Shown here in pieces: positions 22,286-42,207 of a stretch of DNA of 64,000 nt. The DNA comes from Powellomyces hirtus (taxonomy: Eukaryota; Chytridiomycota; Chytridiomycetes; Spizellomycetales; Powellomycetaceae). A program made the position numbers and the translations under genes. Positions within the stretch are counted from its first letter, which is position 1. Every line of letters starts with the position of its first letter. The stretch lies in assembly GCA_025526995.1 (NCBI GenBank), contig JAHLKG010000014.1:682001-746000 (forward strand), written 5' to 3'. The notes under the pieces are model-generated. The model saw nothing but the letters and a program-made list of their open reading frames with translations, had not been told where the DNA came from and made no database searches.

Positions 22286-22560
22286 TGTAATAATACTAGG
22301 TCCGTTGCCAGAGTCTAGTCTTCTATTCGGGAATTCCCTATGTCTAATTCTACTGTAAGATCTCTAAGTCTTGAATACGCCCTCGTCAGAGTATTCCTAC
22401 TTTTCTTCTGGACCGCGAGGCGGTCCCGGTCACGTGATGGCCATCCGTGGCCATCCCTGAGGTCTAGTACCCTTCAGGATGCTGACGCTAGCATCCATCT
22501 CGCGCGGGGCCCTTCCTGGCACGTATCTAGGCTTAGGCTGGCGAACCACGCCTCATTACA
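22286..22560 (-). repeat. Solo gypsy LTR (family D) with TSD AGCAG
   Basis: 275 bp, TGTAATAATAC to CCTCATTACA as read on the plus strand. It is flanked by AGCAG on both sides (22281-22285, 22561-22565). It is the same LTR as the complete gypsy element at 26202-34112 but more diverged. It sits near the centre of the inverted repeat. Confidence 0.9.
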
Positions 22561-22759
22561 AGCAGCAGCAACGCTAGCAATACCAGCGAGCTGGGAGGGG
22601 GGGATGGATTGCATATAAGGCATATCTGTATCTGAACTTGCAAACAAATCACATTATAGCCATCCCCAAAGCCGCTTCTTCCTCATCTAACTTCCTCAGC
22701 ACATAATCTCAAATCTGCTGCCGCTTGTCGCTAGCCCCTGCTGATGCTGCTGCTGCTAA

Positions 22760-25944: not shown

Positions 25945-26201
25945 GTTTGAGAAGGTGTTTTGAGATGCGGTCCAGCATTGTGTGTAAGAGGCTGTTCGAC
26001 CGAAAAATCTCAGCACATGACTTTTTACTAATTAATTTCTCGTTCAAAAGTGATCTCATCTCTGAAAAAACCAGGCCTGAGCCACAAAGCTGCCTGAAGG
26101 TCACGTGTTGCTTACGTGAAAAGCGTCCCGGACAAAATTGGGGGGTAAGACTCTGTACTTCGTCCAGAGAATACACCTGCCGTCCGTCGCCTTTCCCCCT
26201 T
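25945..26201. repeat. Repeat unit Q, left part
   Basis: Matches the first about 257 bp of unit P (19963-20219), with a few differences. It stops at the CCCTT target site of the gypsy element and resumes after it at 34113. Confidence 0.8.
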
Positions 26202-26476
26202 TGTAATAATACTAGGTCCGTTGCCAGAGTCTAGTCTTCTATTCGGGAATTCCCTATGTCTAATTCTACTGTAAGATCTCTAAGTCTTGAATGCGCCTTC
26301 GTCGGAGCATTCCTACTTTTCTTCTAGGCCGCGGAGCAGCCCTGGTCACGTGATGGCCATCCGTGGCCATCCCTGAGGTCTAGTACCCTTCGGGATGCTG
26401 ACGCTAGCATCCATCTCGCGCGGGACCCTTCCCGACGCGTGTCTAGGCTTAGGCTGGTGAGCCACGCCTCATTACA
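26202..26476 (-). repeat. Gypsy 3' LTR (family D)
   Basis: 275 bp with TGTAAT...ATTACA ends. It is preceded (in element sense) by the polypurine tract AAGGGGGG at 26477-26484. Confidence 0.93.
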
Positions 26477-26860
26477 CCCCCCTTAGATTTGCGACTATCT
26501 CTTAGGCTCGAATCTCTTCAGCAAGGTGAAGCTTGCCTAAGCCGGGCGGCGGCGGGTTAACGGATGCTGACGTGGTTGTGGGAAGATGAGGCTGGGGAGG
26601 CGGCCCTGGCGCGGGTCGCGTCGCGGTAGTCTCCGACGGGTAGTCTCCGCCCTTCGTGGTGCGCAAAATCGTCGGAAAGTCTATTTCTCTCTTCGCAGGG
26701 GCCCTAGATGAATCACGAGTAGACCTGAATTTCCGAGCGTTCCCAAGCAGGTCGAGCCTTTAAAAGGTACTGCCCGTTGAATCTCCCCCTCTCGCTCTTC
26801 TTTTCTTTGTAGCTCAACGAACTCACACCACACACACACACATACGCACACACACACACC

Positions 26861-27611
26861 ATGGCTGACACCCCCAACAACTCTCCTCCCCCCCCCCCCG
26901 ACACCACCACCACCACCATGGGCAAGCGCCGGCCCGCCCAGCAACTTGCGAAAGGCGCAACCAAGCGGGCCCAGCCCGCCCGGGTGAGTAGGGGTCGGTG
27001 CTCGTCCTCGGCTGTGGCAACTCGTCTCATGTTCCCCGTCTTCCCTTGTTGTCTACAGGACCCCTCGGTCCATGAAAAGTCCACCCCCGAGAGGTCGGCC
27101 GACTTGCCCTCTTGCTGGAAGTGCAACCAATTCCGCAAGAGCAAGATGTTCACATCGGAATGCCACCATTTGGTGTGCCGGCCCTGCATCGTGGCGGCGG
27201 CCGATGACACGGTATGTCCCCCCCCTTCGCTGAGAGGCGGCCTGATGTCTTCCTAACGGTGTGGTTCCTTTGTTCCTTTGCTTTCCAGAACGACGGCCCT
27301 CAGGGCCAGTTGACGTGCGGCGCCCCCCACTGCGGCCGGGTTCTCTTCTTTGCGGCCATCCCCGCTGGGTGCCAGTTCGCTGGCTGCAACCATGTCGGAG
27401 CGGACCTCCGCATGTTTCCATGCAACCATCTCCACTGCATGGGCCACGTCCGCGCGTAAGTAGTACTCTTCGGCCTGCTGCTGTCGTACCTGACTAACTC
27501 AGCTCTCTCCGCAGCAAGATGAACGTGGCAAATTACACCCCCCTCCGGTGCGGGTTGGGCGACCGGTGCCACGGCAACCGGTGCCAATTCTCCTTCACCA
27601 AGATTGGTTGA
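26861..27611 (+). CDS. Antisense spliced RING-like Cys/His-rich protein carried by the gypsy element
   Basis: Four exons on the strand opposite to gag-pol: 26861-26983, 27059-27211, 27289-27455 and 27515-27611, joining in frame to 179 residues. Introns are 59-77 bp with textbook ends (GTGAGT...CTACAG, GTATGT...TTCCAG, GTAAGT...CCGCAG). The N-terminus is Pro/Thr-rich and basic (GKRRPAQQLAKGATKR). The middle has a RING-like Cys/His cluster: CWKC, then a spacer, CHHLVCRPC, then CGAPHC. The C-terminal part carries more Cys/His pairs (CQFAGCNH, FPCNHLHC, CGLGDRCHGNRC). The RING class suggests ubiquitin-ligase or protein-binding activity, which is inference only. A CA-rich leader (26825-26860) and a TTTAAAAGG box (26759-26767) precede it. 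The gene lies between pol and the 3' LTR, within the element's TSDs. Confidence 0.8.
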
Positions 27612-27879
27612 TTAGTTCTCCCCCCCTCCTTCTTGTACATACTTTCACTTGTTGTCTGTTGCTCCTTCGGGGCCTGGCCTTCGGCCCGTATAATCAAATT
27701 CAGTACCACAATCTCATCGCTGTACTTGCCTTCTCATCGCTGTGCTCCCTTGAGCCTTATAGCATTTCGTATGCGTCCGCTGTGTCCAATGTCACTCGGC
27801 TTCCTCCCGGCTATGGTGCTCATGGTAGATGCCCTGCATCACACTTCCCCGTTGGGAAGACCGCCCAGCGGTTCCCCGG
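27612..27879. other. Spacer 3' of the antisense gene
   Basis: About 270 bp of non-coding element sequence between the antisense stop and the tandem repeats. It probably contains the antisense 3' UTR. Confidence 0.4.
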
Positions 27880-28610
27880 CCATCGTCCAACAATGCCGGT
27901 ATCTCACCTAGTGAGGTCTACTGCCTCGCAGTCTTTGGCTCATTAGCCCAGCGATCCCGGCATCTCGCCCAGCGAGGTATGTCGCCCAGCAACCTTCAGC
28001 CCATCGTCAAACGATGCCGGCATCTCACCTCGTGAGGTCTACTGCCTCGCAGTCTTCGGCTCATCACCCAGCGATCCCGGCATCTCGCCCAGCGAGGTAT
28101 GTCGCCCAGCGACCTTTGGCCCATCGTCAAACGATGCCGGTATCTTGGCCGAAGCCCTTCTCTTCCCCTTCGCGTGGGTATGTACTACGGCCATGGTCCC
28201 CGCGGGTCTCGAGGTACGCTGCCATGCAAATCTGGTGCCGGTCACCTTGCATCGGCAGCCGGTCGATGCCCAGCATCACCCTTCTCACCCAGTGAGGTAT
28301 GCCGCCCAGCGGCCTTCGGCCCATCGTCAAACGATGCCGGTATCTTCACCGAAGCCCTTCTCTTCCCCTTCGCGTGGGTATGTACTACGGCCATGGTCCC
28401 CGCGGGTCTCGAGGTACGCCGCCATGCAAATCTGGTGCCGGTCACCTTGCATCGGCAAGCCGTTGGCTCATCGCCCAGCGATCCCGGCATCTCACCCAGT
28501 GAGGTATGCTGCCCAGCAGCCTTCGGCCATCGTCCAACGATGCCGGCATCTCGCCCAGCGAGGCATGCTGTCCAACAGCCTCCGGCCATCGTCCAACGAT
28601 GCCGGAATCT
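27880..28610. repeat. Tandem repeats between the antisense gene and pol
   Basis: Imperfect units of about 60-65 bp built on GATGCCGG(C/T)ATCTCGCCCAG. A longer unit of about 185-200 bp, containing CTTCTCTTCCCCTTCGCGTG and ATGCAAATCTGGTGCCGGTC, is present twice (about 28117-28275 and 28323-28460). The array occupies the element's 3' non-coding region and separates pol from the convergent antisense gene. Confidence 0.75.
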
Positions 28611-28680
28611 TGCACTATAATGTCCTCTACCTCAAGTAGCATCTCTCTTGTTAATTTACGGTACAGCTCACTATCTAGGT

Positions 28681-31600
28681 TCACTTACGTCGCCTGGCCG
28701 CTAGCCTTTGGCCGCGGTCCTCTCCGGGGTGCTCCCGGAGCCATTCTTCCAGCGCGGTCGTCCCCTTCACGTGTGCATACGGCTCCCACGTGTTCTGGGT
28801 GCTGTCGTAACCTGTCCACTTGACTAAGAACTGCTCGGTGTTCCTGTGCCATCTGGCATTTAGGATCTTATCCACTTGGTAGGTCTCCTGACCGTCTTCG
28901 TCCTTCTCGGGCTCAGGCGGAGCGGTGACCTGTCTGTACGGGGTATCGCCCGGGTCATGGTAACGTCTCAGAATGCTGACGTGAAAGACTGGGTGCAATC
29001 CGGTGAACTCCTTGGGTAGTTCGAGCTCGTAGGTGTCAGGATGCGGCCCCTTGCCGCGTACTGTGAATGGCCCAATCCATTGCTCAGCCAGCTTTTTGTT
29101 CCTTGTGGTGACGCTGGTAATCGCAATACCCTCACGATGGAGTAAGACCTTGTCACCCTCTCGGTATGCTTCCGTGTGCTTCTTGCGGTCGTAGTACTTT
29201 GCCTGCTGGTCCTGTGCATCTCGGAGCCGTTGCTGCACGATGCGACCCACGTCGGCGAATTCCTTAATCCGTCTCTCCACGGCGGTTCGTGCCGATTGCC
29301 TTATCATCTCTCCGGGGTTAGGTGCTACCCATTGGTTCGGTACCCGGGGAACGCGGCCTAGGTCAATCTCGAAAGGGGATAGTCCCGTCGACGTCTGCGG
29401 CGTTCGGTTGTAGTTGTACTCGAGTGTGGGGAGTAAACTCTTCCAGTTGGAGCCGGCATAGTCGAGAAAGGGGCCCATGATTCCCTTGATCGTCTTGATG
29501 GCGTTCTCCGCCTTGCCGTCGGTCTGTTGGTGTCGTGCCGACGAGAGTTCTTGCTTGACGTCGAGTGCCCGCATGAGGTACCGCCAGAATTCTGATAGCC
29601 ACTTGGGGTCCCGATCGCTCACAATGGTGTGGGGTAACCCCGTGTGGCGAAATGCCTGTTCCAGAAAGAGTTGAGCCGTCTCCTGAGCTGTAGCGCGTGT
29701 GTTAGTAGATAGGAGTATCACGCGGCATGAAAGGTAGTCGACGATGAGGAGTACGGCGTCTGCCGTCTTGGTCAGTCTCTCGCCGGTGTGGTGCGGAGGG
29801 TTCTTTGTCACGTCGGGCTCTACCCGAGGTTCCCCCCCCTTAGAGTCTGACGTGGGGAAGAATATATCCATGCCGATTTGTTGCCAACGGGCGTCGGGGA
29901 TCGGTAAGCTGCGGAGGAAACCGATCGGCGCGGTTCGCTTGTGACGTTGGCAGGTAGGGCAGGTGCGGACATATTGGTACACATCACGCTCCATGTGGGG
30001 CCAGTAATACGACTCCAGAAGTTTGGCGAGCGTCCGTTGGACACCGGAGTGACCACCGTTCGCGAGGGAGTCGTGATGAATCTGAAGGAGTGGCCCCCGC
30101 AAGCTGTCGGGGACGTACCGACGGTCATGGTACATCAAGAATCGGTGCGGAGGGGAGTCCACTGTCCGGAATCGGCGTGCATGGCCGGATAGGTTCTCCG
30201 GGGGACTGTTGATGGTTAGTAAGATGTTTTGGCCGAAATCATCCGATGCGAGCGCCTGGGTCCAGTCCGCAACCGTCGGCATGTGCGTCGGGACGGGCTT
30301 CTCCGTCTGCACAATGGCGGTGACCACGTCGATCTTGGCCTGGCAGGTTGCACACTTGGGGGCGTAAGTCGGGTCGCGACTGAGGAAGTTGGCGATCGAA
30401 TTCCATGTGCCGGGGAGGTATTCCACTGAGAAATCGAACTGTTGGAGGAACTCGACCCAGCCTGCTTGGCGACGTGACAGGTGGGGTTGTTCCTGGAGGT
30501 AGATCAGGGACTTGTGGTCAACAAACGCGCGGAATGGGTGGCCGATGAGGTAATGGCGGTTGGCGCGTATGGACTTGACTAATCCCAGTAGTTCTTGTTC
30601 ATGCATGGGGTATCGAGTCTCGGCGGGTTGCATCTTGCGGGAGTAGTATGTCACCGGGCGAAGTTGCGGGAGGTTGGCTAAGCCCGATTTGGTGGTTGGT
30701 AGTGGGTGAGGGTAAGGGAAATCCCCTTTGGCCGGCTGCGCCAGCCATCCGCCGTAGGCGTAGCCCGATGCGTCCGTGAACCAGTAGGTGTCGAGCGCCG
30801 GGTCGAAGTACGCTAGGGTGGGTGCCGAGGAGCATAATTCCTTTAAGCGATTGAACGCTCGATCTTCCTCGTCACCCCACTGCCATGGGCGGTTGCCGGA
30901 TTGCAGATTCGTTAGGGGTAGGGCAATCTGTGCATACTCGAGGATGTATTCCTTGACATAGTTGACGAGGCCCATGAAGCTAAGGAGCTCCAGGGAGTTG
31001 GTCGGGCGAGGTCGTTCCCGGACCGCGGTCACCTTGGAGGGGGCGATACTTAGGCCATCCTTGCCGACTCGGTGGCCGCAGAACTCGACTTCGTCAACCG
31101 CCCATTGACATTTGCTGGGTTTGACGTGGAGGCGATGTTCCGTCAAGGTCTTGAGGACCTCGTCGACGTGCTGAATGTGCGAACTCATGTCGGTGCTGAA
31201 TATGAGGATATCGTCGAGGTATGAGATCACGTAGGCGTTGTACTTGTCGCCCAAGAGCTTGTTGGTTAGTCGCTGGAATGTAGCAGGTGCATTAGTTAAG
31301 CCGAAAGGTAGAACATTGTATTCAAAATGTCCAAAACGTGTTCGGAACGCTGTTTTCTCCCTATCTTCCGGTCGGATCATGATGCAGTGGTACGCGTTGC
31401 GGATGTCGATCGCGGTGAATACCCGCATGTTGACAAGCCTGTCGCGCAGCTCCGAGAGGTTCGGAAGTGGCGTGGCATCCTTGTGAGTCATCTTGTTCAG
31501 TGCCCGGTAGTCAATGCAGCAGCGTAGGCCGCCGTCCTTCTTTGGGGCAAATAGGACGGGCACGCCCCACGGACTGCGAGAGTGTGAGATCCAACCCTTG

Positions 31601-32697
31601 TCCATTAAACGCTGCATCTGCTGGCCGAGCTCGTCCAGTTCGTCAGGGCTCAAATGCCGGAGTGGCTGCATCACGGGCTTCGAGCCGGGTTTGAGCCGAA
31701 TGGTGAAATTGTCCTTGCCTCGGTCCGGAGGCATGCCTGACTGCTCGGTGATTAGCGTCGTGACGTATTTTTCTAGGGTCAGTCGGAGTGGATGGTCGGC
31801 TGCCAGCGTCTCTAGTGGGTCTTCTTGATCTGCCGCCTTGGCTTCAGTATTGGTGTGGCGTCGTTCCTCCAAGATCGCCCTTTTCTTGGCGTCGACCGTC
31901 CGTACAAATTGAGCCTCTGCAACTGGAATCGCATCTACGATGTGTACCTCGAAGACTCCAGTGATCTCGCCCTTCTTCATCAAGCGTTTCCATTGCTTGG
32001 CCGTGTAGATTCCCTCTGCATTGAGTGCTGGCTTCGCCGGCTGGAATCTGCGGGGCCGTTCCTCTCGTGGGGACAGTAGACGGGCGGCGCACGCGGATGG
32101 TGCTTCCCAGTGGCGGTTGGTCGATTTGGCTCGAAGGCTGAGGGTCTGGCCGTCGTGGTAGAACGTCATCGTTGGAAAGCCCCCTTGGTTGAAAAGCCCT
32201 CGGACGTCCAGCCCCAATATGAATGGCAAGCCCAGTATGGCATCGACCCTGATCGGCGCGACCACGAACGGTACGGTATCCTCCCGGTAGATGATCTTCT
32301 CCTCGGTGAACACCGAGAGGTCCCCACAGGTCATCTTTGTTGCCCCGTAGTTTCCCGCTCTGTCGCCCCACCGGACCTCCAGCGGAGTTGGGGAGGTGTA
32401 GGTCCGGAGGCCGTGTTTGGCGGCCCAAGTGTCGCTGATGATCAGGGTGTTACATCCGGTATCGATTAGGATGCGGGCAAAGTGCCCTTGTACCTTCCCG
32501 TGGACCACAAATGTCTTCCTGTGAATGCGGGGTCCCGGTCTGTCCGTGGGGATCTTGTCTTGCATTCGGGGTTGGGGTACTGAGACGGTGCAAGCGTTCA
32601 GCACCCGGGGCGAAAATCCGAACTGTTGACTGAGCCCCCGTCGCTGGCCGCCTCGTCTCCGGACCCTTCGGTGATCTCTACAGGGGCGGCGAACGTC
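28681..32697 (-). CDS. pol: Gypsy Pol polyprotein with C-terminal chromodomain
   Basis: An open frame of at least 1307 codons. Domains in order, numbering from the codon at 32604: aspartic protease (LIDTGCNT about 46-53, ILGLPFI); reverse transcriptase (LPFGLTNAPATFQR, ISYLDDILIF about 460); RNase H (WFTDASGYAYGGW); integrase with its HHCC finger (about 840-890, CPTCQRH) and D,D-35-E residues (MDIFFP about 909, SDRDPKW about 997, GKAENA about 1030); chromodomain at the end (QFLVKWTGYDSTQNTWEP, about 1240-1290). The frame has no good ATG. It is open from a stop near 32697 and overlaps the 3' end of gag in the -1 frame, so expression by -1 frameshifting is likely. No disabling mutation is seen. 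Confidence 0.93.
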   Translation of the reverse strand, partial: DVRRPCRDHRRVRRRGGQRRGLSQQFGFSPRVLNACTVSVPQPRMQDKIPTDRPGPRIHRKTFVVHGKVQGHFARILIDTGCNTLIISDTWAAKHGLRTYTSPTPLEVRWGDRAGNYGATKMTCGDLSVFTEEKIIYREDTVPFVVAPIRVDAILGLPFILGLDVRGLFNQGGFPTMTFYHDGQTLSLRAKSTNRHWEAPSACAARLLSPREERPRRFQPAKPALNAEGIYTAKQWKRLMKKGEITGVFEVHIVDAIPVAEAQFVRTVDAKKRAILEERRHTNTEAKAADQEDPLETLAADHPLRLTLEKYVTTLITEQSGMPPDRGKDNFTIRLKPGSKPVMQPLRHLSPDELDELGQQMQRLMDKGWISHSRSPWGVPVLFAPKKDGGLRCCIDYRALNKMTHKDATPLPNLSELRDRLVNMRVFTAIDIRNAYHCIMIRPEDREKTAFRTRFGHFEYNVLPFGLTNAPATFQRLTNKLLGDKYNAYVISYLDDILIFSTDMSSHIQHVDEVLKTLTEHRLHVKPSKCQWAVDEVEFCGHRVGKDGLSIAPSKVTAVRERPRPTNSLELLSFMGLVNYVKEYILEYAQIALPLTNLQSGNRPWQWGDEEDRAFNRLKELCSSAPTLAYFDPALDTYWFTDASGYAYGGWLAQPAKGDFPYPHPLPTTKSGLANLPQLRPVTYYSRKMQPAETRYPMHEQELLGLVKSIRANRHYLIGHPFRAFVDHKSLIYLQEQPHLSRRQAGWVEFLQQFDFSVEYLPGTWNSIANFLSRDPTYAPKCATCQAKIDVVTAIVQTEKPVPTHMPTVADWTQALASDDFGQNILLTINSPPENLSGHARRFRTVDSPPHRFLMYHDRRYVPDSLRGPLLQIHHDSLANGGHSGVQRTLAKLLESYYWPHMERDVYQYVRTCPTCQRHKRTAPIGFLRSLPIPDARWQQIGMDIFFPTSDSKGGEPRVEPDVTKNPPHHTGERLTKTADAVLLIVDYLSCRVILLSTNTRATAQETAQLFLEQAFRHTGLPHTIVSDRDPKWLSEFWRYLMRALDVKQELSSARHQQTDGKAENAIKTIKGIMGPFLDYAGSNWKSLLPTLEYNYNRTPQTSTGLSPFEIDLGRVPRVPNQWVAPNPGEMIRQSARTAVERRIKEFADVGRIVQQRLRDAQDQQAKYYDRKKHTEAYREGDKVLLHREGIAITSVTTRNKKLAEQWIGPFTVRGKGPHPDTYELELPKEFTGLHPVFHVSILRRYHDPGDTPYRQVTAPPEPEKDEDGQETYQVDKILNARWHRNTEQFLVKWTGYDSTQNTWEPYAHVKGTTALEEWLREHPGEDRGQRLAARRRK

Positions 32698-33809
32698 CTA
32701 TGCTCACCGGTTCTACCTTTACTTGCTGGGCACCCACTGGCGTAATGCCCCTTGCCCCCGCAGTTGAAACATTCGTTGCGCTCACGGCGTTCGTCGTAGA
32801 TGGTGCGCTCACGGCGTGAAATCCCTTGGTAGTTGTCCATACCGCGTGTGGGACAACCTGAGCCATAGGGGGTGTGGCGTCCCCTTTCTCGTGCTTGATA
32901 GTTCCCTCGATGTACCTGAGCCGGCTGGACTGCAGCGTACTGACGTCTCCTCCCGTCGGGGGTTACCTGCGTGACATCGTCCACATAGCCTCGAATCCTG
33001 TAGCATAGCAGAGCTTCATTCTGTAGCTCGGTGATCGGGATCTCGGCGCCATTATTCCTCATGATTGCGGCATAGCAGTGGTCCCGAATGCGCTGGCCGA
33101 CATGGTTGGTCGAGAATCCCGTCAAGAAATAGTCACGTTCTTGCCTTGGGGTAAGCCGCTCCTTGTCGTCAAGCGTCACGATCTGGGCCCGAAGGGTATT
33201 GAACTTGGCGATATACTCCGATATGCTATTGGTGAAAACCAACCGCTTCATCTTTGCTTCTGCGGTGTTTCGTAAGTTGGCGGGGTAAAAGGGGATGCGG
33301 AGGATCCTCGTGAATTCTTCCAATGTCGTGGGCTGGTCGCCGGCATCTCTGAGCATTTGCCACCATTCGTCGGCGGTTTCCTTGAGGTACCCCAAGATGT
33401 GGTCGACGCCCCGGTGGTCCGTCCTGAAGTCGGTTGCCTCAAGGTAGCGCGTGTGGACCTTCAGAAACTCGTCGACCTTCGACACCATTTCTTCACTGTT
33501 CCCTTTTCCGTCGAAGTGTGTCAGCTGCTTGCGAAGGTTCTCGCGGCGTTCCTTCTCAGCTTGCATTCGTGCGCGGTTTTCTTCCGCCAGGATGATGTCG
33601 ACGTGCGGTGTTGCAACCGCTGGTTGGACTGGGGTCGAAATCCTTGAGAGAAGGGCTTCGAAGCGGGCCTCTCCCATTGCGATCTGTTCCTGCAGTAGGC
33701 GTTGGGTCTCCGCCAATTGTGCAGCTAACATTGCGACGGGGTTGTCGGTCGGTGTGTCGGCTTCGGGTTCTCCTACTGCCATTGGGCTGTTCCTGGTGCT
33801 ACGTGCCAT
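32598..33809 (-). CDS. gag: Gypsy Gag with CCHC zinc knuckle
   Basis: 403 residues starting MARSTRNSPMAVG, 28 bp after the LTR end and just past the primer-binding site. A coiled-coil-like N-terminal part (AAQLAETQRLLQEQIAMGE) is followed by the Ty3-type capsid domain (WWQMLRDAGDQPTTLEEF) and one CCHC knuckle (CFNCGGKGHYASGC). It packages element RNA in the cytoplasmic particle. The stop lies inside the overlapping pol frame. Confidence 0.93.
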   Translation of the reverse strand: MARSTRNSPMAVGEPEADTPTDNPVAMLAAQLAETQRLLQEQIAMGEARFEALLSRISTPVQPAVATPHVDIILAEENRARMQAEKERRENLRKQLTHFDGKGNSEEMVSKVDEFLKVHTRYLEATDFRTDHRGVDHILGYLKETADEWWQMLRDAGDQPTTLEEFTRILRIPFYPANLRNTAEAKMKRLVFTNSISEYIAKFNTLRAQIVTLDDKERLTPRQERDYFLTGFSTNHVGQRIRDHCYAAIMRNNGAEIPITELQNEALLCYRIRGYVDDVTQVTPDGRRRQYAAVQPAQVHRGNYQARERGRHTPYGSGCPTRGMDNYQGISRRERTIYDERRERNECFNCGGKGHYASGCPASKGRTGEHRTFAAPVEITEGSGDEAASDGGSVNSSDFRPGC

Positions 33810-33837
33810 TGTTGTCGTCTACGGGGTGGTGCTACCA

Positions 33838-34112
33838 TGTAATAATACTAGGTCCGTTGCCAGAGTCTAGTCTTCTATTCGGGAATTCCCTATGTCTAAT
33901 TCTACTGTAAGATCTCTAAGTCTTGAATGCGCCTTCGTCGGAGCATTCCTACTTTTCTTCTAGGCCGCGGAGCGGCCCTGGTCACGTGATGGCCATCCGT
34001 GGCCATCCCTGAGGTCTAGTACCCTTCGGGATGCTGACGCTAGCATCCATCTCGCGCGGGACCCTTCCCGACGCGTGTCTAGGCTTAGGCTGGTGAGCCA
34101 CGCCTCATTACA
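33838..34112 (-). repeat. Gypsy 5' LTR (family D)
   Basis: 275 bp, essentially identical to 26202-26476 (AGCGGCCC here against AGCAGCCC there). Confidence 0.93.
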
Positions 34113-34117
34113 CCCTT

Positions 34118-36629: not shown

Positions 36630-37316
36630 ATGGCCAAGGTATGTCTATGAGATCCGCGCAAATGAGGCGTAAGCTCTAACTATGTGCCGGTGTAGTTGTC
36701 AGGTTCGGGCAAGGCGAAGCAGACGGTGAGAAAGACGGGACCGCCGGCAACTACTCCTGCGGCGACTACAGCTCCGGCTGTGCCGTCGTCAGTGGTGCCC
36801 TCAGCGCCAGTGGGAGGCGCACCCGCTGCGGGGTTGTCCCGAGCGGAGATTCAAACGATGTCGGCAGCGTATGCCCAACAGTTCCACCGCAAGGACCGTC
36901 AAGCGGTCCTGGAACGTCACATCGAGCAGGCAAAAGACCGGGTAAAGGACCGGGCGAGGTCTGGTACGCCTCTTGGTCGCGCACGGGCGACCGGGACCCT
37001 TGATGGACTGAGGTCCATACTAGAGGACCGGCGGAGCCGGAAGCTGGCGGTTGGGAAGGGCAAGGGTACAGCCCAGGCGAAGAAGAAGACTGCGGACAAG
37101 AAGTCTGCAGCAGAGGTGAAGAGGATGTGGGACATCCTGGAGCGGGAGGCTCCATATAATGATGAGGAAGAGGAGGAGGAGGGGGCAGCCGAGGAGTTGG
37201 AGGGACCATCGGGTTCTCCAAGCCGACGCTCACCCTCAAGCGATGAGGATGATGGAGGAGGGGCAGGCCCATCTTCCTTGGGGGGCATTGCTTCGGGTTC
37301 CGCAATTGCGGTGTAG
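36630..37316 (+). CDS. Antisense spliced gene of copia element C1
   Basis: Two exons on the strand opposite to gag-pol: 36630-36638 (ATGGCCAAG) and 36696-37316. The 57-bp intron has donor GTATGT, a CTAAC branch-point-like motif and acceptor GTGTAG. The 209-residue product starts M-A-K-L-S-G-S-G-K-A-K. It has an Ala/Pro/Thr-rich N-terminal part, a basic helical middle (RKDRQAVLERHIEQAKDRVK, LEDRRSRKLAVGKGKG) and an acidic, Ser/Gly-rich tail (YNDEEEEEEG). It is likely a nuclear or nucleic-acid-binding protein, by composition only. The same gene with the same intron occurs in C2 (minus strand). In C3 it is present but broken by a stop. I do not recognise a family. Confidence 0.7.
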
Positions 37317-40300
37317 ATGCCGAGGTAAGCCAGTGTTGTGAGTAATTCTCCTGACATTCAGCAAGTAACACTTGAGCTCGGTGTGCTTCCGTAGGCGCGC
37401 CCTCATTGCGTATGCGTTCATCAAATATAAGAGTCCCGTTCGTAATCCTCAGGACAGTGTCCTTATGTTTCACAGTGGGAAAAGGCTTTGTAAAGATGTC
37501 CGCCAGTTGATCGTCCGTATTGGTGTCGATGATTTCGATAATTTGCTTCGCGAACGAATTGCGTATAGCGTGGTACCGAACGTTGATGTGTTTGGTGCGT
37601 TGGTTGATAGCCTTAGACTGAATCAAGGCCCCGGCGCTCTGATTATCGACATGGAGAGGGACCGGTCGAGATTTGTAATCCGGTTGAGGTCCCAAAACTT
37701 CCGCCAAGAGTTGGCGTAGCCATTTGGCTTCGTTGTGGCCAGTACTGGCAGCTATATACTCCGCTTCGGTCGTACTTTGGGCGGTGCACTTCTGCTTGCT
37801 GCTTTTCCACAGAACAGGAAACCCATTGTAAAGGGCCAAAATGCCTGTAGTGGACGTCCGGTCGGTGAGTTCTCCTGCATAATCCGCATCCGTGAATACG
37901 CGTAAGCCACGCGGATCATTTCGTTCGGATGTAAACTTGAGGGCATAATCGAGGGTACCCTTCAAATAGTGGAAAATGCGCTTAACAATGTTCCAGTCGG
38001 AGTTGGTAGGTGCGGCGACGCGGCGCGCAACGTAACCGACTGCAGTGGCGATATCCCATCGCCATGTGATGGAGGCCCAAGTGAGGACCCCCACTGCTTC
38101 CTGATACATCTTTAGATTTGTGAATGGTGTCGAATCCTCCGGTTGTTGGTTACGCGCTGACACGGCGTACGGAGTGGAGACAGGATGGCAGTCGCTCATG
38201 CCGAATTGTTCGAGAGCGTTGTCGATGTACTTGACATTTGAGATTTCGAGGGTACGAACAGGAGAGTCGAAGTCATATTTGTAGACGAGACCAAGGTGAC
38301 TGGTTACGCGACCTTGTTCCGTAAACTTGAACTTGGTGTGTAGCTCCGTTTTGCTGTTCGCTAGAATCTCCGGATCCTTCGCTGCAATCAGCAGGTCGTC
38401 GACGAAGACGAGAATAAGGACCAAATTGTCGTTCGACGGAGGTGTACGGTCCTCTGTCGCGTACTTGAAAAAGATACACGGGCATACAGAAACCTCTTCA
38501 TAGCCGAGCTTTAACAGTGCAGCCTTCAAGGTCTCATACCAAAGAAGAGGTGATTGCTTCAGGCCGTAGAGAGCTTTCAGTAGCTTCAGGACCCAATCGC
38601 CTTTGGGGTGATCCGGATCTTCGAATCCCTCAAACTGCTCGATATAGATGTCCTTATCAATATCTCTGTTAAGGAAGGCGGTGACAGCGTCCATACTGTG
38701 GATGTCCAGCCCGTGCTGGACACAATACGCCAAGAAGAGGCGTAGCGCTGTGAATGGTAGCATCGGTGAGTATGTATCACCAAAGTCGCGACCGGGTTGT
38801 TGAGAGAAGCCTTGAGCCACTGCTCTGGCTTTGAACTTGTTAAAGGTGCCATCGGGATTGACCTTCGTTTGAAAGACCCATGTTGTTCCGATCACGCGCT
38901 TGTTGCGTGGACGCTTGGTGAGCTCCCATGTACCGTTGTCGACCAGGGATTGGTACTCAATACGTGCAGCTTTGAGAAATTCCTCCTTCTGGGGTGTTTT
39001 CATCGCTTGCTTCCATGTCATGGCGTCTTTGTTGATCGTTGCTTGAGTCCGCGCGCGGGCGGCGTATGCAGCGATGGGGTCATTTTGTCGTGTGCCGACA
39101 TCGTACGCGGCTACTCGATTCTCCCAGTCATCCAATGCTGTAGTATCGAGTAGTGAAAGTCGGGACTCCCAGGTAGATTCTTGATATCCCTCCCACTTAA
39201 CCAAGTACTCTTTCGTGTGCGCCTTACTGCGGCGCTCGTCGATAATCGCCTCCACGGTGTATTTGACGTCATCCTCCTGACTCTCCTCATCTAGAAGGTC
39301 AAGATGTGCTGGATCCTGCTGATATTTGGGTTCGAGTCCCAAGTCTTCTTTGAAGATCACGTCTCGTGACACTTCGACCTTGTCAGTAACAGGATCCCAA
39401 ACCAGATACCCCTTGGTACCTGAGGGTTGAGCATAGCCTACCAAGTAAGCCTTCTTTGCTCGATTCCCCATTTTATCGCGTCCTTTGCTCGTTAGAACGG
39501 AATACGCCACGCAACCGATACGCCGAAGATGGGCGACATCAGGACGCCGGCCAAACAGTATTTCATGCGGCGTCTTCTTGTTGATGCGGTTGTACGTAAG
39601 GGAATAGATGTATCCAGCCGCTATCAGTAGAGCAGGCCAGAATCTTTGGGGTAGTTTCGTATCCGCGAAGGTGGCGCGGACCCTGTCCAGCGCCGTGCGA
39701 TGCCATTGTTCAGCAATCCCGTTTTGCTGACTCGAATAGGCCGCGGACTTTTGATGAGTGATACCATTTTCCAATAGGTACTCTAGAACCTCGCCAAAGT
39801 ATTCGGTGCCTCGATCCGTGCGTAGAATCTTGATGTGTCGGTCAGTCTGTTTCTCAATCCAAGCCTTGTAAATGAGAAACTTGTCGAGTATGACTGCTGA
39901 GTCCTTTGAAGGAATAGGGAAAACAGTCACGTATCTGGATGTGTGTTCAATGAACTCCAGCGAATAGCGTGATCCTTCGTAACCAGGGATGCGAAATGGT
40001 CCTTGTAGGTCTGAATGAATCAGCTCACAGATCTCCCTGGTTTCAACGTTACCAAGGGAGAATGGAAGACAAGCGGCTTTTCCTAACACGCAGGCTTCAC
40101 AATCTTTGAAGTCGCTTAGATCCCCCACTACGGACCAACCGTCCGTAACCGATGCCATCTTCTCCAGGACGTGTTTGCCAACGTGTCCAAGACGAGCATG
40201 AGCAAGTGTAGGAGAGACTTCGACAGTGCATGCTTCTGAATCTGTCCACAGACTTTCAGACAGCAGCGTACCTTGCAGGTAATACGCATTGTTGCGGCGT

Positions 40301-42153
40301 ACGCCTTTGGCGATATCTTTGCCGTCTCGCGTGAAAATGACGTCTCCATTCGACTTGAAGAGCACGTCAACGCCTTGATTGTTGCATTTCGCTACCGATA
40401 CGAGATCTCGTCGTAATCCTGGCACATGCAGGACTCCGCCCAACTCGAGCGGATTCGGATAGTCGTTAACTTCTACTCGTACCGTACCTCGAACTGTAGA
40501 GGGTAGTGATGTTTTGTCAGCAAGCATAACAGCTCTGACATCACTGTACACGGTTGAGTGATCCAAGGTCGCTTTGTGAGGTGTCATGTGGTCCGTAGCG
40601 CCAGAGTCAATGAGGGCTCCATACGGTTGTTCTTGGCGGACCCAGACGTGTAATGCTTCCACAGCATTTGTGCTAACGGCACCATCAGACGACTGCTTCG
40701 TCTTGTTCTTCTCCATCTCGGATTTGAACTTCTTTAACACTTCGCACTCCTGTGTCTGGTGTTTAGGGTCTCCACAGGCCCAACAACCCGACTTGTGTTG
40801 TTGGCCTTTGTTTGATGGAGTGGATTCCTTGTCCTTCTTGCCGTTCGTTGACTTCTCCCCGTGGGTCTTGCCACCCTTTTGTTTCTTAGAGGCGTCAGTG
40901 TGTGCGGCACCTGGTCGCGTATCCGTTGAGGTCCCGCTAGGTTTCTTAGCCATGTTGGCAGCGATCCTGGATGCAGCGGCCTGTAAACTGCTCAAATCAG
41001 TTATGTTTTCTTCATTAGCCTGAACCAAGGCCGCAAGGTCTGGTGTTAGCGAGTTGATGAAGTAATCCTGAAGGACGTAATCCGGTGTCTTTGGCAGAGA
41101 AAATGCCAGCATGTTGAACTGAGTGATGTACTCATCCATGCGGCCTTTGGGACGCAATTCCCGTAATTTCTGCAGCGAATCCCTAGTGTGGTTTCGTGGC
41201 GCGAACCGCGCCAGAAGGGCGGACCTAAGACCGGTCTGGGTTCTTCCTGAATCAACGTCTTCAAAGTCATGCCACGTCGTAATTTCGTTCCTTTTACTTG
41301 GTGAGAGCGACTGCCACCAAGTGTATGCCCATCCTGTGAGTTTCGTAGCCACAAAATCCACGAGAAACTCGGGCGGAACCATTTCGTACTTCACAACTGT
41401 CTCAATCTTGTCGATGAACGTTTGAAGTTTGACCATATTGGCTTCCCCGTTGTAAGATCCAATATCTTTCAGCGTTCCATCCACGAAAGCCTTCGCACCT
41501 CGACTGTCAACGATTTTGGTCGTCACGCTGTGTATGCTCGATGTCGGTGATGTAGGGCGGCGTTCGAATGGAGAACGTTGGTATTCCTGTTGAGCTCCAA
41601 TCTCCTGATTGTACTCTGTCCACGGTGCAGCGAACCCGTCGTTGCGAGTGGGTGATGGTGTGCGTACGCGCCGTTGCGCCGTACGTACCTGAGGGTTGAC
41701 CGGGATGTTCATATCCTGATCCATGCACCATTTCATTTGGAGCATTTCCGTTAGTTGGGCTAGAGAATTCTCAAGCCGATCTATCCTATCCACGTCCGCC
41801 TCACGCGGGCGGACATGCACGGTGTTCTCTGATTCCCCACTTGGGAATGCCGCTGGAGTACTGTAATTGATCATTCGGTGATCATCCGTACTGCTTGATA
41901 GGGGACGGGTATCGACCTTGCCATTGCGTCGGTCGATGTTTCGGGTACGCCCTTCCAATGCGTCATCGCCCTTGTTGGCGTCAACACTTAAAGGCGTTGG
42001 CTCTGCCAGTGTATCTTCACCGGCAGAGTTCCCTCCATTGCTTGGTGATGTCCATTCACCAGGCACTCGTGCGCTTTTCTTTGCAGCACGTTCTACGGCT
42101 CGTTGTAGCATATTGGACCCTGGGGTCTGTCGACCCGTTAGGCGTCTTAACAT
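36766..42153 (-). CDS. gag-pol: Copia C1 Gag-Pol polyprotein
   Basis: 1795 codons from ATG 42153. Order of domains: Gag (TWWQSLSPSKRNE), CCHC knuckle (CWACGDPKHQTQEC), protease (LIDSGATDHMT), pre-integrase/HHCC (LAHARLGHVG ... CEACVLGKA), integrase core (IHSDLQGPF, LRTDRGTEYF, GIAEQWHR), chromodomain (EYLVKWEGYQESTWESR), reverse transcriptase (ALYGLKQSPLLWYE, VFVDDLLIAA) and RNase H (FTDADYAGELTDR, LADIFTKPF). The last about 220 residues, Pro/Ser-rich, are the reverse reading of the antisense gene and may not be real protein. C1 and C3 have a one-base deletion (CCCCGG against CCCCCAG in C2) that separates the upstream ATG from the frame, so this copy must start at an internal ATG. Confidence 0.92.
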   Translation of the reverse strand: MLRRLTGRQTPGSNMLQRAVERAAKKSARVPGEWTSPSNGGNSAGEDTLAEPTPLSVDANKGDDALEGRTRNIDRRNGKVDTRPLSSSTDDHRMINYSTPAAFPSGESENTVHVRPREADVDRIDRLENSLAQLTEMLQMKWCMDQDMNIPVNPQVRTAQRRVRTPSPTRNDGFAAPWTEYNQEIGAQQEYQRSPFERRPTSPTSSIHSVTTKIVDSRGAKAFVDGTLKDIGSYNGEANMVKLQTFIDKIETVVKYEMVPPEFLVDFVATKLTGWAYTWWQSLSPSKRNEITTWHDFEDVDSGRTQTGLRSALLARFAPRNHTRDSLQKLRELRPKGRMDEYITQFNMLAFSLPKTPDYVLQDYFINSLTPDLAALVQANEENITDLSSLQAAASRIAANMAKKPSGTSTDTRPGAAHTDASKKQKGGKTHGEKSTNGKKDKESTPSNKGQQHKSGCWACGDPKHQTQECEVLKKFKSEMEKNKTKQSSDGAVSTNAVEALHVWVRQEQPYGALIDSGATDHMTPHKATLDHSTVYSDVRAVMLADKTSLPSTVRGTVRVEVNDYPNPLELGGVLHVPGLRRDLVSVAKCNNQGVDVLFKSNGDVIFTRDGKDIAKGVRRNNAYYLQGTLLSESLWTDSEACTVEVSPTLAHARLGHVGKHVLEKMASVTDGWSVVGDLSDFKDCEACVLGKAACLPFSLGNVETREICELIHSDLQGPFRIPGYEGSRYSLEFIEHTSRYVTVFPIPSKDSAVILDKFLIYKAWIEKQTDRHIKILRTDRGTEYFGEVLEYLLENGITHQKSAAYSSQQNGIAEQWHRTALDRVRATFADTKLPQRFWPALLIAAGYIYSLTYNRINKKTPHEILFGRRPDVAHLRRIGCVAYSVLTSKGRDKMGNRAKKAYLVGYAQPSGTKGYLVWDPVTDKVEVSRDVIFKEDLGLEPKYQQDPAHLDLLDEESQEDDVKYTVEAIIDERRSKAHTKEYLVKWEGYQESTWESRLSLLDTTALDDWENRVAAYDVGTRQNDPIAAYAARARTQATINKDAMTWKQAMKTPQKEEFLKAARIEYQSLVDNGTWELTKRPRNKRVIGTTWVFQTKVNPDGTFNKFKARAVAQGFSQQPGRDFGDTYSPMLPFTALRLFLAYCVQHGLDIHSMDAVTAFLNRDIDKDIYIEQFEGFEDPDHPKGDWVLKLLKALYGLKQSPLLWYETLKAALLKLGYEEVSVCPCIFFKYATEDRTPPSNDNLVLILVFVDDLLIAAKDPEILANSKTELHTKFKFTEQGRVTSHLGLVYKYDFDSPVRTLEISNVKYIDNALEQFGMSDCHPVSTPYAVSARNQQPEDSTPFTNLKMYQEAVGVLTWASITWRWDIATAVGYVARRVAAPTNSDWNIVKRIFHYLKGTLDYALKFTSERNDPRGLRVFTDADYAGELTDRTSTTGILALYNGFPVLWKSSKQKCTAQSTTEAEYIAASTGHNEAKWLRQLLAEVLGPQPDYKSRPVPLHVDNQSAGALIQSKAINQRTKHINVRYHAIRNSFAKQIIEIIDTNTDDQLADIFTKPFPTVKHKDTVLRITNGTLIFDERIRNEGAPTEAHRAQVLLAECQENYSQHWLTSASTPQLRNPKQCPPRKMGLPLLHHPHRLRVSVGLENPMVPPTPRLPPPPPLPHHYMEPPAPGCPTSSSPLLQTSCPQSSSSPGLYPCPSQPPASGSAGPLVWTSVHQGSRSPVRDQEAYQTSPGPLPGLLPARCDVPGPLDGPCGGTVGHTLPTSFESPLGTTPQRVRLPLALRAPLTTAQPEL

Positions 42154-42207
42154 ACTACGAGTGTACCGGGGCTCGTTTCGTTGCCTACCATTTCAGGGCT
42201 CATAACC

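Follow-up and report, generated by a model that had tools for sequence, protein, structure and literature searches.

The gene brtn, which lies antisense in the Boty element of Botrytis cinerea, is said to go back to Zhao et al. (2011, Virology 417:248), and HBZ of HTLV-1 is spliced and has a leucine zipper. Plants and the fungal gypsy element Boty are already known to have antisense accessory genes between pol and the 3′ LTR, according to the accessible parts of two articles (PMC7264820, PMC8365987). The plant examples (aORF-3R) comprise gene23 of Grande and the antisense ORFs of RIRE2, Retand, and PvRetro13, and for the Grande gene a promoter of its own has been reported (accessible parts of PMC7264820 and PMC11963269). 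Most antisense ORFs of LTR elements are described as being without known function in the accessible part of PMC7264820. The titles and abstract openings covered, with most subscription papers outside their scope, yielded no antisense LTR-element gene with a RING or zinc finger. The word zinc is absent from the accessible main texts of PMC7264820 and PMC11963269, the word RING is absent from that of PMC7264820, and the word antisense was not found in the accessible part of a survey covering LTR elements in fungi (PMC3248453).

The locus described here lies in a 64,000-nt stretch of Powellomyces hirtus DNA (contig JAHLKG010000014.1, positions 682,001 to 746,000), called the window in the following. 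The original prediction knew of no fungal chromovirus described as carrying a gene of this sort; as stated, this is not supported in view of brtn of Boty, a gypsy element, as far as the accessible parts of PMC7264820 and PMC8365987 go. The window contains a Ty3/gypsy chromovirus of 7.9 kb, which is read on the minus strand and spans positions 26202–34112 (Table 1). The element is young, and its two LTRs of 275 bp each have a single mismatch between them. Its pol shows the order protease, RT, RNase H, and integrase with a C-terminal chromodomain, by which chromoviruses are recognized. The H2C2, SH3, and chromodomain models scored above their Pfam cut-offs, the rve core scored below its own, and the CCHC knuckle of gag was slightly under the cut-off. 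Of 832 pol matches, the best 120 were listed, and the closest named ones among these are proteins of Powellomyces hirtus, at 88% over 68% of the query and at 81% over 31%; they point to Powellomyces or close kin as the host, a spizellomycetalean chytrid and probably a soil fungus. Two further retroelement sequences were observed in the window. Positions 22286–22563, 3.9 kb leftward of the element, are a 92% copy of its LTR and probably represent a solo LTR or a remnant. Positions 36766–42192 (minus strand) encode an 1808-aa Ty1/copia-type polyprotein (RVT_2) with a Ty3-capsid-like gag and a chromodomain (PF00385, 36 bits, cut-off 25.1) placed between integrase and RT.

On the strand opposite to gag-pol, between the end of pol (28681) and the 3′ LTR, a gene of four exons and 179 codons is located at 26861–27611 (+). 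It does not overlap pol, and the interval between the two contains about 730 bp of tandem repeats. The central features of the original prediction, i.e. four exons with canonical splice sites, an antisense open frame of 179 codons, and a location inside the LTRs and the target-site duplication, were confirmed on the sequence. A TATA-like box is also present upstream of the gene; of the 33 copies tallied, 28 have the identical letters or one additional A.

Table 1. Coordinates of the antisense gene and of the surrounding Ty3/gypsy element in the window.
Feature	Position	Strand	Basis
Target-site duplication CCCTT, left	26197..26201	.	sequence
3′ LTR, 275 bp, TG...CA; element on the minus strand	26202..26476	-	
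Polypurine tract at the 3′ LTR, sense CTAAGGGGGG	26477..26486	-	sequence
TATA-like box CTTTAAAAGG, upstream of exon 1	26758..26767	+	function inferred
Exon 1: Pro/Thr-rich tail; basic stretch, two KR pairs	26861..26983	+	
Intron 1, GT..AG, 75 nt	26984..27058	+	
Exon 2: RING-like ligands one to six, C60 C63 C76 H78 C81 C84	27059..27211	+	
Intron 2, GT..AG, 77 nt in the window copy; CTAAC branch-like motif	27212..27288	+	
Exon 3: C102, C107; bulk of the second cluster, C120 C125 H127 C137 H139 C142 H145	27289..27455	+	
Intron 3, GT..AG, 59 nt	27456..27514	+	
Exon 4: C160 C166 H167 C171, stop included	27515..27611	+	
Tandem repeats, periods of about 60, 120, and 200 bp; interval between gene and pol	27880..28610	.	
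pol, 1338 aa between stops; protease, RT, RNase H, integrase domains (zinc-binding, SH3), chromodomain	28681..32697	-	
gag, 406 aa stop to stop; Retrotrans_gag	32598..33818	-	
Primer-binding site, sense TGGTAGCACCAC, abuts the 5′ LTR	33826..33837	-	sequence; role inferred
5′ LTR, 275 bp, one mismatch versus the 3′ LTR	33838..34112	-	
Target-site duplication CCCTT, right	34113..34117	.	sequence

The genome (29.3 Mb, 60 contigs) was searched for further copies. A protein search gave 254 exon matches, and those listed (about 160) were merged by hand into at least 69 gene places, with 150 scored out of 246 candidates. When the gene was searched as DNA, 82 candidates were obtained, and the 40 that were scored each cover at least bases 1–749 of the 751. 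The search with pol gave 39 matches, which were merged into 35 places (35 scored among 774 candidates), and these were compared with the gene list, which is incomplete at its minimum of 69 places. The gene was present on the opposite strand at a distance of up to 3.5 kb from pol at 31 of the 35 scored pol places. The four pol places without it are one that is too close to a contig end (C53), one in which pol is without its last 21 residues (C33), and two others (C29 and C56). When 20 places were fetched at 9.5 kb, pol was found in all of them and both LTRs in 14, and the adjacent LTR was present in 30 of the 33 copies that had enough left flank. The antisense gene is part of the element family and is carried by most of the sampled copies; its occurrence in the expected spot at most pol places shows that it is not a one-off insert.

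We read 38 copies, counting that of the window once, i.e. the 30 best matches, L051–L053 (the two most diverged copies and one picked as diverged), and L054–L058. This sample is biased toward well-kept copies, and it contains two exact duplicates over the gene, which leaves 36 distinct copies. Intact genes, with the ATG, all splice dinucleotides, the frame, and the stop, were found in 21 of the 38 copies (19 of 36 without the duplicates), a count that ignores zinc ligands and includes L055 and L058, each with one changed Cys. The remaining 17 copies are broken by length changes in exon 1 (nine copies), by loss of a splice donor (five copies, one of them also among the nine), or by other frameshifts, stops, or stop loss. 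The inspection of other copies that had been suggested to check the prediction therefore found the region kept and the frame mostly kept. Exon 1 (26861–26983) contains runs of C and CCA, and its length varies between copies; some of these changes could be assembly errors.

For several copies (L011, L012, L015, L051, and L053), the identities to the window copy are discordant between the gene and the LTR or pol. For example, L051 has 93.8% in the LTR and 81% in the gene, and L015 has 97.9% in the gene and 93.1% in the LTR. Such discordant values, as read from the copies, would suggest that subfamilies have recombined or exchanged cassettes.

From its sequence features, the gene looks spliced. 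Among the copies, the splice donors alternate between GTGAGT and GTAAGT and the acceptors between CAG and TAG, and a CTAAC or CTGAC motif is kept in intron 2 of 37 of the 38 copies. The divergence is 0.043 for intron 1, 0.044 for intron 3, and 0.076 for intron 2, compared with 0.086 at synonymous sites of exons 2–4. The low values of introns 1 (26984–27058) and 3 (27456–27514) are not explained by splicing alone.

The presence of dozens of copies of several depths in one genome allows selection on the antisense protein to be measured directly. On a tree of the 36 distinct copies, the internal branches carry 41 nonsynonymous and 54 synonymous changes in exons 2–4, equivalent to an omega of about 0.27. 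The nonsynonymous fraction is 0.43, compared with 0.74 expected under context-matched random placement, and none of 1000 simulations gave a value as low. The terminal branches carry 160 nonsynonymous changes (and 2 stops) and 101 synonymous changes, with an omega of about 0.78 (p = 0.022). Omission of L051–L053, the most diverged or damaged copies, gave 21 nonsynonymous and 26 synonymous internal changes (omega 0.30, 0 of 500 simulations as low) and a terminal omega of 0.76 (p = 0.056). Because the copies seem to recombine, change counts on a single tree are strained; pairwise results need no tree. For the same 12 copies, the pairwise dN/dS is 0.237 for exons 2–4, 0.214 for pol, and 0.086 for exon 3, and the synonymous differences are nearly equal (0.100 for the gene and 0.102 for pol). 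In these 12 copies, the antisense ORF is hence conserved about as well as the element's own pol.

The four exons differ in their degree of constraint. The pairwise dN/dS among 30 copies is 0.30 for exons 2–4, 0.14 for exon 3, 0.74 for exon 4, and 0.50 for exon 1. Exon 1 alone has an internal omega of 0.56, which is not significant (p = 0.13), and a terminal omega of 0.49 (p = 0.004). Exon 4 is neutral on the terminal branches, and its internal branches carry 5 nonsynonymous and 8 synonymous changes (omega 0.20). When exons 2–3 of L051 are compared with those of the window copy, differences are found at 33.5 of 70.7 synonymous sites and at 26.5 of 244.3 nonsynonymous sites; this divergence at a dN/dS of 0.16 indicates that the gene is old in the family. 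The dN/dS of the antisense frame, which had been named as a further check, is therefore well below 1, and we are almost certain that the antisense gene is a selected coding gene. Low values on internal branches and nearly free terminal branches would be the pattern of a gene that is needed during activity and then released, and a weaker constraint on terminal branches is the expectation after insertion.

The RING C3HC4 consensus is C-x2-C-x9-39-C-x1-3-H-x2-3-C-x2-C-x4-48-C-x2-C. The first Cys/His set of the predicted protein, C60-x2-C63-x12-C76-x1-H78-x2-C81-x2-C84, is a standard RING start and is followed by C102-x4-C107. Its first six ligands (60–84) fit the strict pattern, and the last pair fails. 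A six-ligand RING core arises in 0.5% of shuffles of residues 42–179. None of the RING models of Pfam reached its gathering score (zf-C3HC4 had 16.3 and 17.0 bits at a cut-off of 21), and the best E values were 0.0089 for the full window protein and 0.0055 for exons 2–4 alone. The best matches of the set among solved structures were to polycomb group RING-finger proteins, PCGF5 (E = 0.03) and RING2 (E = 0.32); they are weak, and the last pair is C-x4-C here and C-x2-C there. The second cluster, C120-x4-C125 ... C137-N-H139-x2-C142-x2-H145 ... C160 ... C166-H167 ... C171, gave no Pfam match when searched alone, and its one PDB match (E = 1.1) was taken as chance.

The numbers of deviating copies per position were determined for the 33 of 38 copies in which exons 2–4 are in frame and stop-ended, which excludes the decayed old copies L051 and L053. 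The 23 Cys/His positions have a mean of 0.26 deviating copies, compared with 1.43 at other positions. Individual ligand losses are C81 in L055, C166 in L058, H78 in L051, and C137 together with C171 in L053. The predicted ordered Cys/His pairs are thus conserved, but they form only one RING-like set, with an unusual C-x4-C as its last pair, plus a second cluster. The old copies L051 and L053 likewise have the basic stretch of exon 1 with its two KR pairs, and we take this stretch to be a possible bipartite nuclear signal. Mimicry of the histone H3 tail by the basic stretch was considered and rejected; the score is met by 2.3% of shuffles, uncorrected, and is weaker in the old copies.

When 5.8 billion proteins were searched by five-residue words in common (28 candidates), a single match reached E ≤ 0.01. 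This match, P0001, is named “oncoid” and assigned to Powellomyces chytrid fungus MELD virus 1. The gene is the same as that of the window, but it is filed as a gene of a DNA virus and is unspliced: introns 1 and 2 are included as protein, and P0001 ends at the start of intron 3. Its exons 2–3 match the window copy at 103 of 107 residues, and a structure prediction for it from the single sequence gave an uninformative pLDDT of 35. The oncoids of MELD viruses are a class defined by short linear motifs (accessible part of PMC11071296). The 120 best pol matches listed, out of 832, include no MELD virus 1 protein. If a copy of the retroelement lay within or next to the deposited contig, the viral label would be accounted for, and the annotation of this TPA “oncoid” is, judging from the sequence comparison, probably in need of correction.

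Further searches for relatives were negative. An exon-3 profile gave 9 candidates in the protein database, none of them at E ≤ 0.1. Searches of viral contigs with P0001 and with the pol alignment gave 2 and 101 pattern matches, none of which was confirmed as a relative in a collection that may leave out records near the Powellomyces genome. A search of PHROGs gave no match. As no homologue was found outside a Powellomyces-like lineage, the constraint rests on one genome. The polinton DNA polymerase model PF03175 had no match in the genome, and its controls were equally silent. The Pox_A32 ATPase model matches five places (C26:295663, C30:128246, C13:791515, C50:14180, and C3:300575), which are possibly polinton-like elements. 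It also matches two prokaryote controls, Thermus and Sulfolobus, and is therefore not virus-specific.

The constraint could in principle belong to another product of the same DNA. The sense strand contains a 179-codon frame at 26713–27252, and an env-like product under constraint would turn the antisense frame into a mere mirror. The minus frames that share wobble positions with the gene do mirror its signal (omega 0.48 for exon 2 and 0.23 for exon 3), and the other frames of these two exons, without shared wobble positions, have internal-branch omegas of 0.76 to 5.0. However, 22 of 33 copies have a stop within the frame at 26713–27252 (raw reading, indels included), and the wobble-sharing minus frame over exons 3–4 is open in 10 of 38 copies, compared with 35 of 38 for the gene. 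We rejected the sense-strand and mirror frames, as they are mostly broken across copies, and regard this explanation as scarcely credible. It is also highly improbable that the protein is read through introns 1 and 2 as in the deposited record. Intron 1 would permit it, being 75 nt long in all 38 copies and open in 35, and intron 2 is open in frame in P0001 and in 12 of the 38 copies. Yet the length of intron 2 varies from 73 to 81 nt and is a multiple of three in only 13 of 38 copies, so that the frame is shifted or stopped in 26, including the window copy. In addition, intron 1 is unconstrained as an in-frame read-through (10 nonsynonymous and 5 synonymous internal changes, omega 1.02), whereas exon 4, which lies past the stop in intron 3, is constrained on internal branches and has conserved Cys. 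The unspliced protein was rejected on these grounds.

Two other explanations concern what is selected or where the gene came from. The antisense transcript itself could be the product, with an incidental frame, and could tune silencing or copy number as double-stranded RNA with the genomic RNA. RNA from this locus would indeed pair with genomic RNA, and antisense RNA roles have been proposed for plant and animal elements (accessible part of PMC7264820). The fact that introns 1 and 3 are less diverged than synonymous exon sites hints that the nucleic acid itself may be constrained, and it led us to raise our low estimate for this explanation slightly. The selection on the amino-acid sequence, with internal omegas of 0.27–0.30 compared with 1.02 for intron 1, and the sparing of Cys/His positions nevertheless make it quite unlikely; a double role of protein and antisense RNA is possible. 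A little less unlikely is a functionless passenger, i.e. a zinc-finger gene of a cell or of a polinton-like virus that was captured together with its introns. The introns would imply capture as genomic DNA or along with unspliced RNA, the only database relative found is labelled “MELD virus”, and one of the five Pox_A32 places, on C26, is at a distance of about 14 kb from a gene copy, although this model is not specific for viruses. A passenger would drift, however, whereas the observed constraint is close to that of pol. The label of P0001 would more likely stem from a retroelement copy in or beside the contig, and a donor outside LTR elements was not found among the best genome matches listed.

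The best explanation, which we hold to be reasonably probable, is an element-borne accessory gene that is transcribed from its own promoter, spliced, and translated into a nuclear RING-like protein acting in trans. A promoter beside the 3′ LTR would give rise to an antisense mRNA, which would then be spliced. Being antisense to the genomic RNA, the introns would not be removed during retrotransposition and so could persist. The basic N-terminus could mediate nuclear entry, and the RING-like zinc domain might act for the element in trans, through chromatin binding or through the ubiquitin-linked modification of a protein of the host or of the element. Action in trans would fit the observation that broken copies remain family members. 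That the protein is a nuclear zinc-binding regulator acting for the element appears to have slightly better than even chances. An E3 ligase in the strict sense is doubtful, and the more specific proposal that a spliced antisense RING-type ubiquitin ligase of the element disables a host silencing or restriction factor, i.e. a counter-defence gene, is less probable still. If this latter reading were true, the gene would be of a similar kind to the accessory genes of retroviruses, and a counter-defence gene of a retroelement would apparently already have been mis-filed as a DNA-virus “oncoid”.

Taken as a whole, the antisense gene is probably a working accessory gene. It is a clean test case for the role of such genes and may provide a domain hypothesis for them, that of a zinc-binding, RING-like protein. 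The deposited “viral oncoid” is also a warning, as a retroelement gene was read unspliced.

The comparison with known systems concerns position and strand. Boty is likewise a fungal LTR element of the gypsy type, in which an additional gene is situated between pol and the 3′ LTR and runs antisense to gag-pol; it has another fungal host, and the comparison of brtn with the gene described here covers position and strand (accessible part of PMC7264820). HBZ of HTLV-1 is an antisense gene near the 3′ LTR with a nuclear regulator as its product (accessible part of PMC11963269). In contrast to the putative promoter of the gene described here, that of HBZ is inside the 3′ LTR (accessible part of PMC7264820), and a sequence similarity is not claimed. 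The aORF-3R genes differ in belonging to plant elements, and the usual domain of Retand is TRP28. They share the location and the strand with the Powellomyces gene and are also retained in most copies, and tandem repeats in the interval from pol to the 3′ LTR, like those found here, occur in Retand in about half of the elements surveyed (accessible parts of PMC7264820 and PMC11963269).
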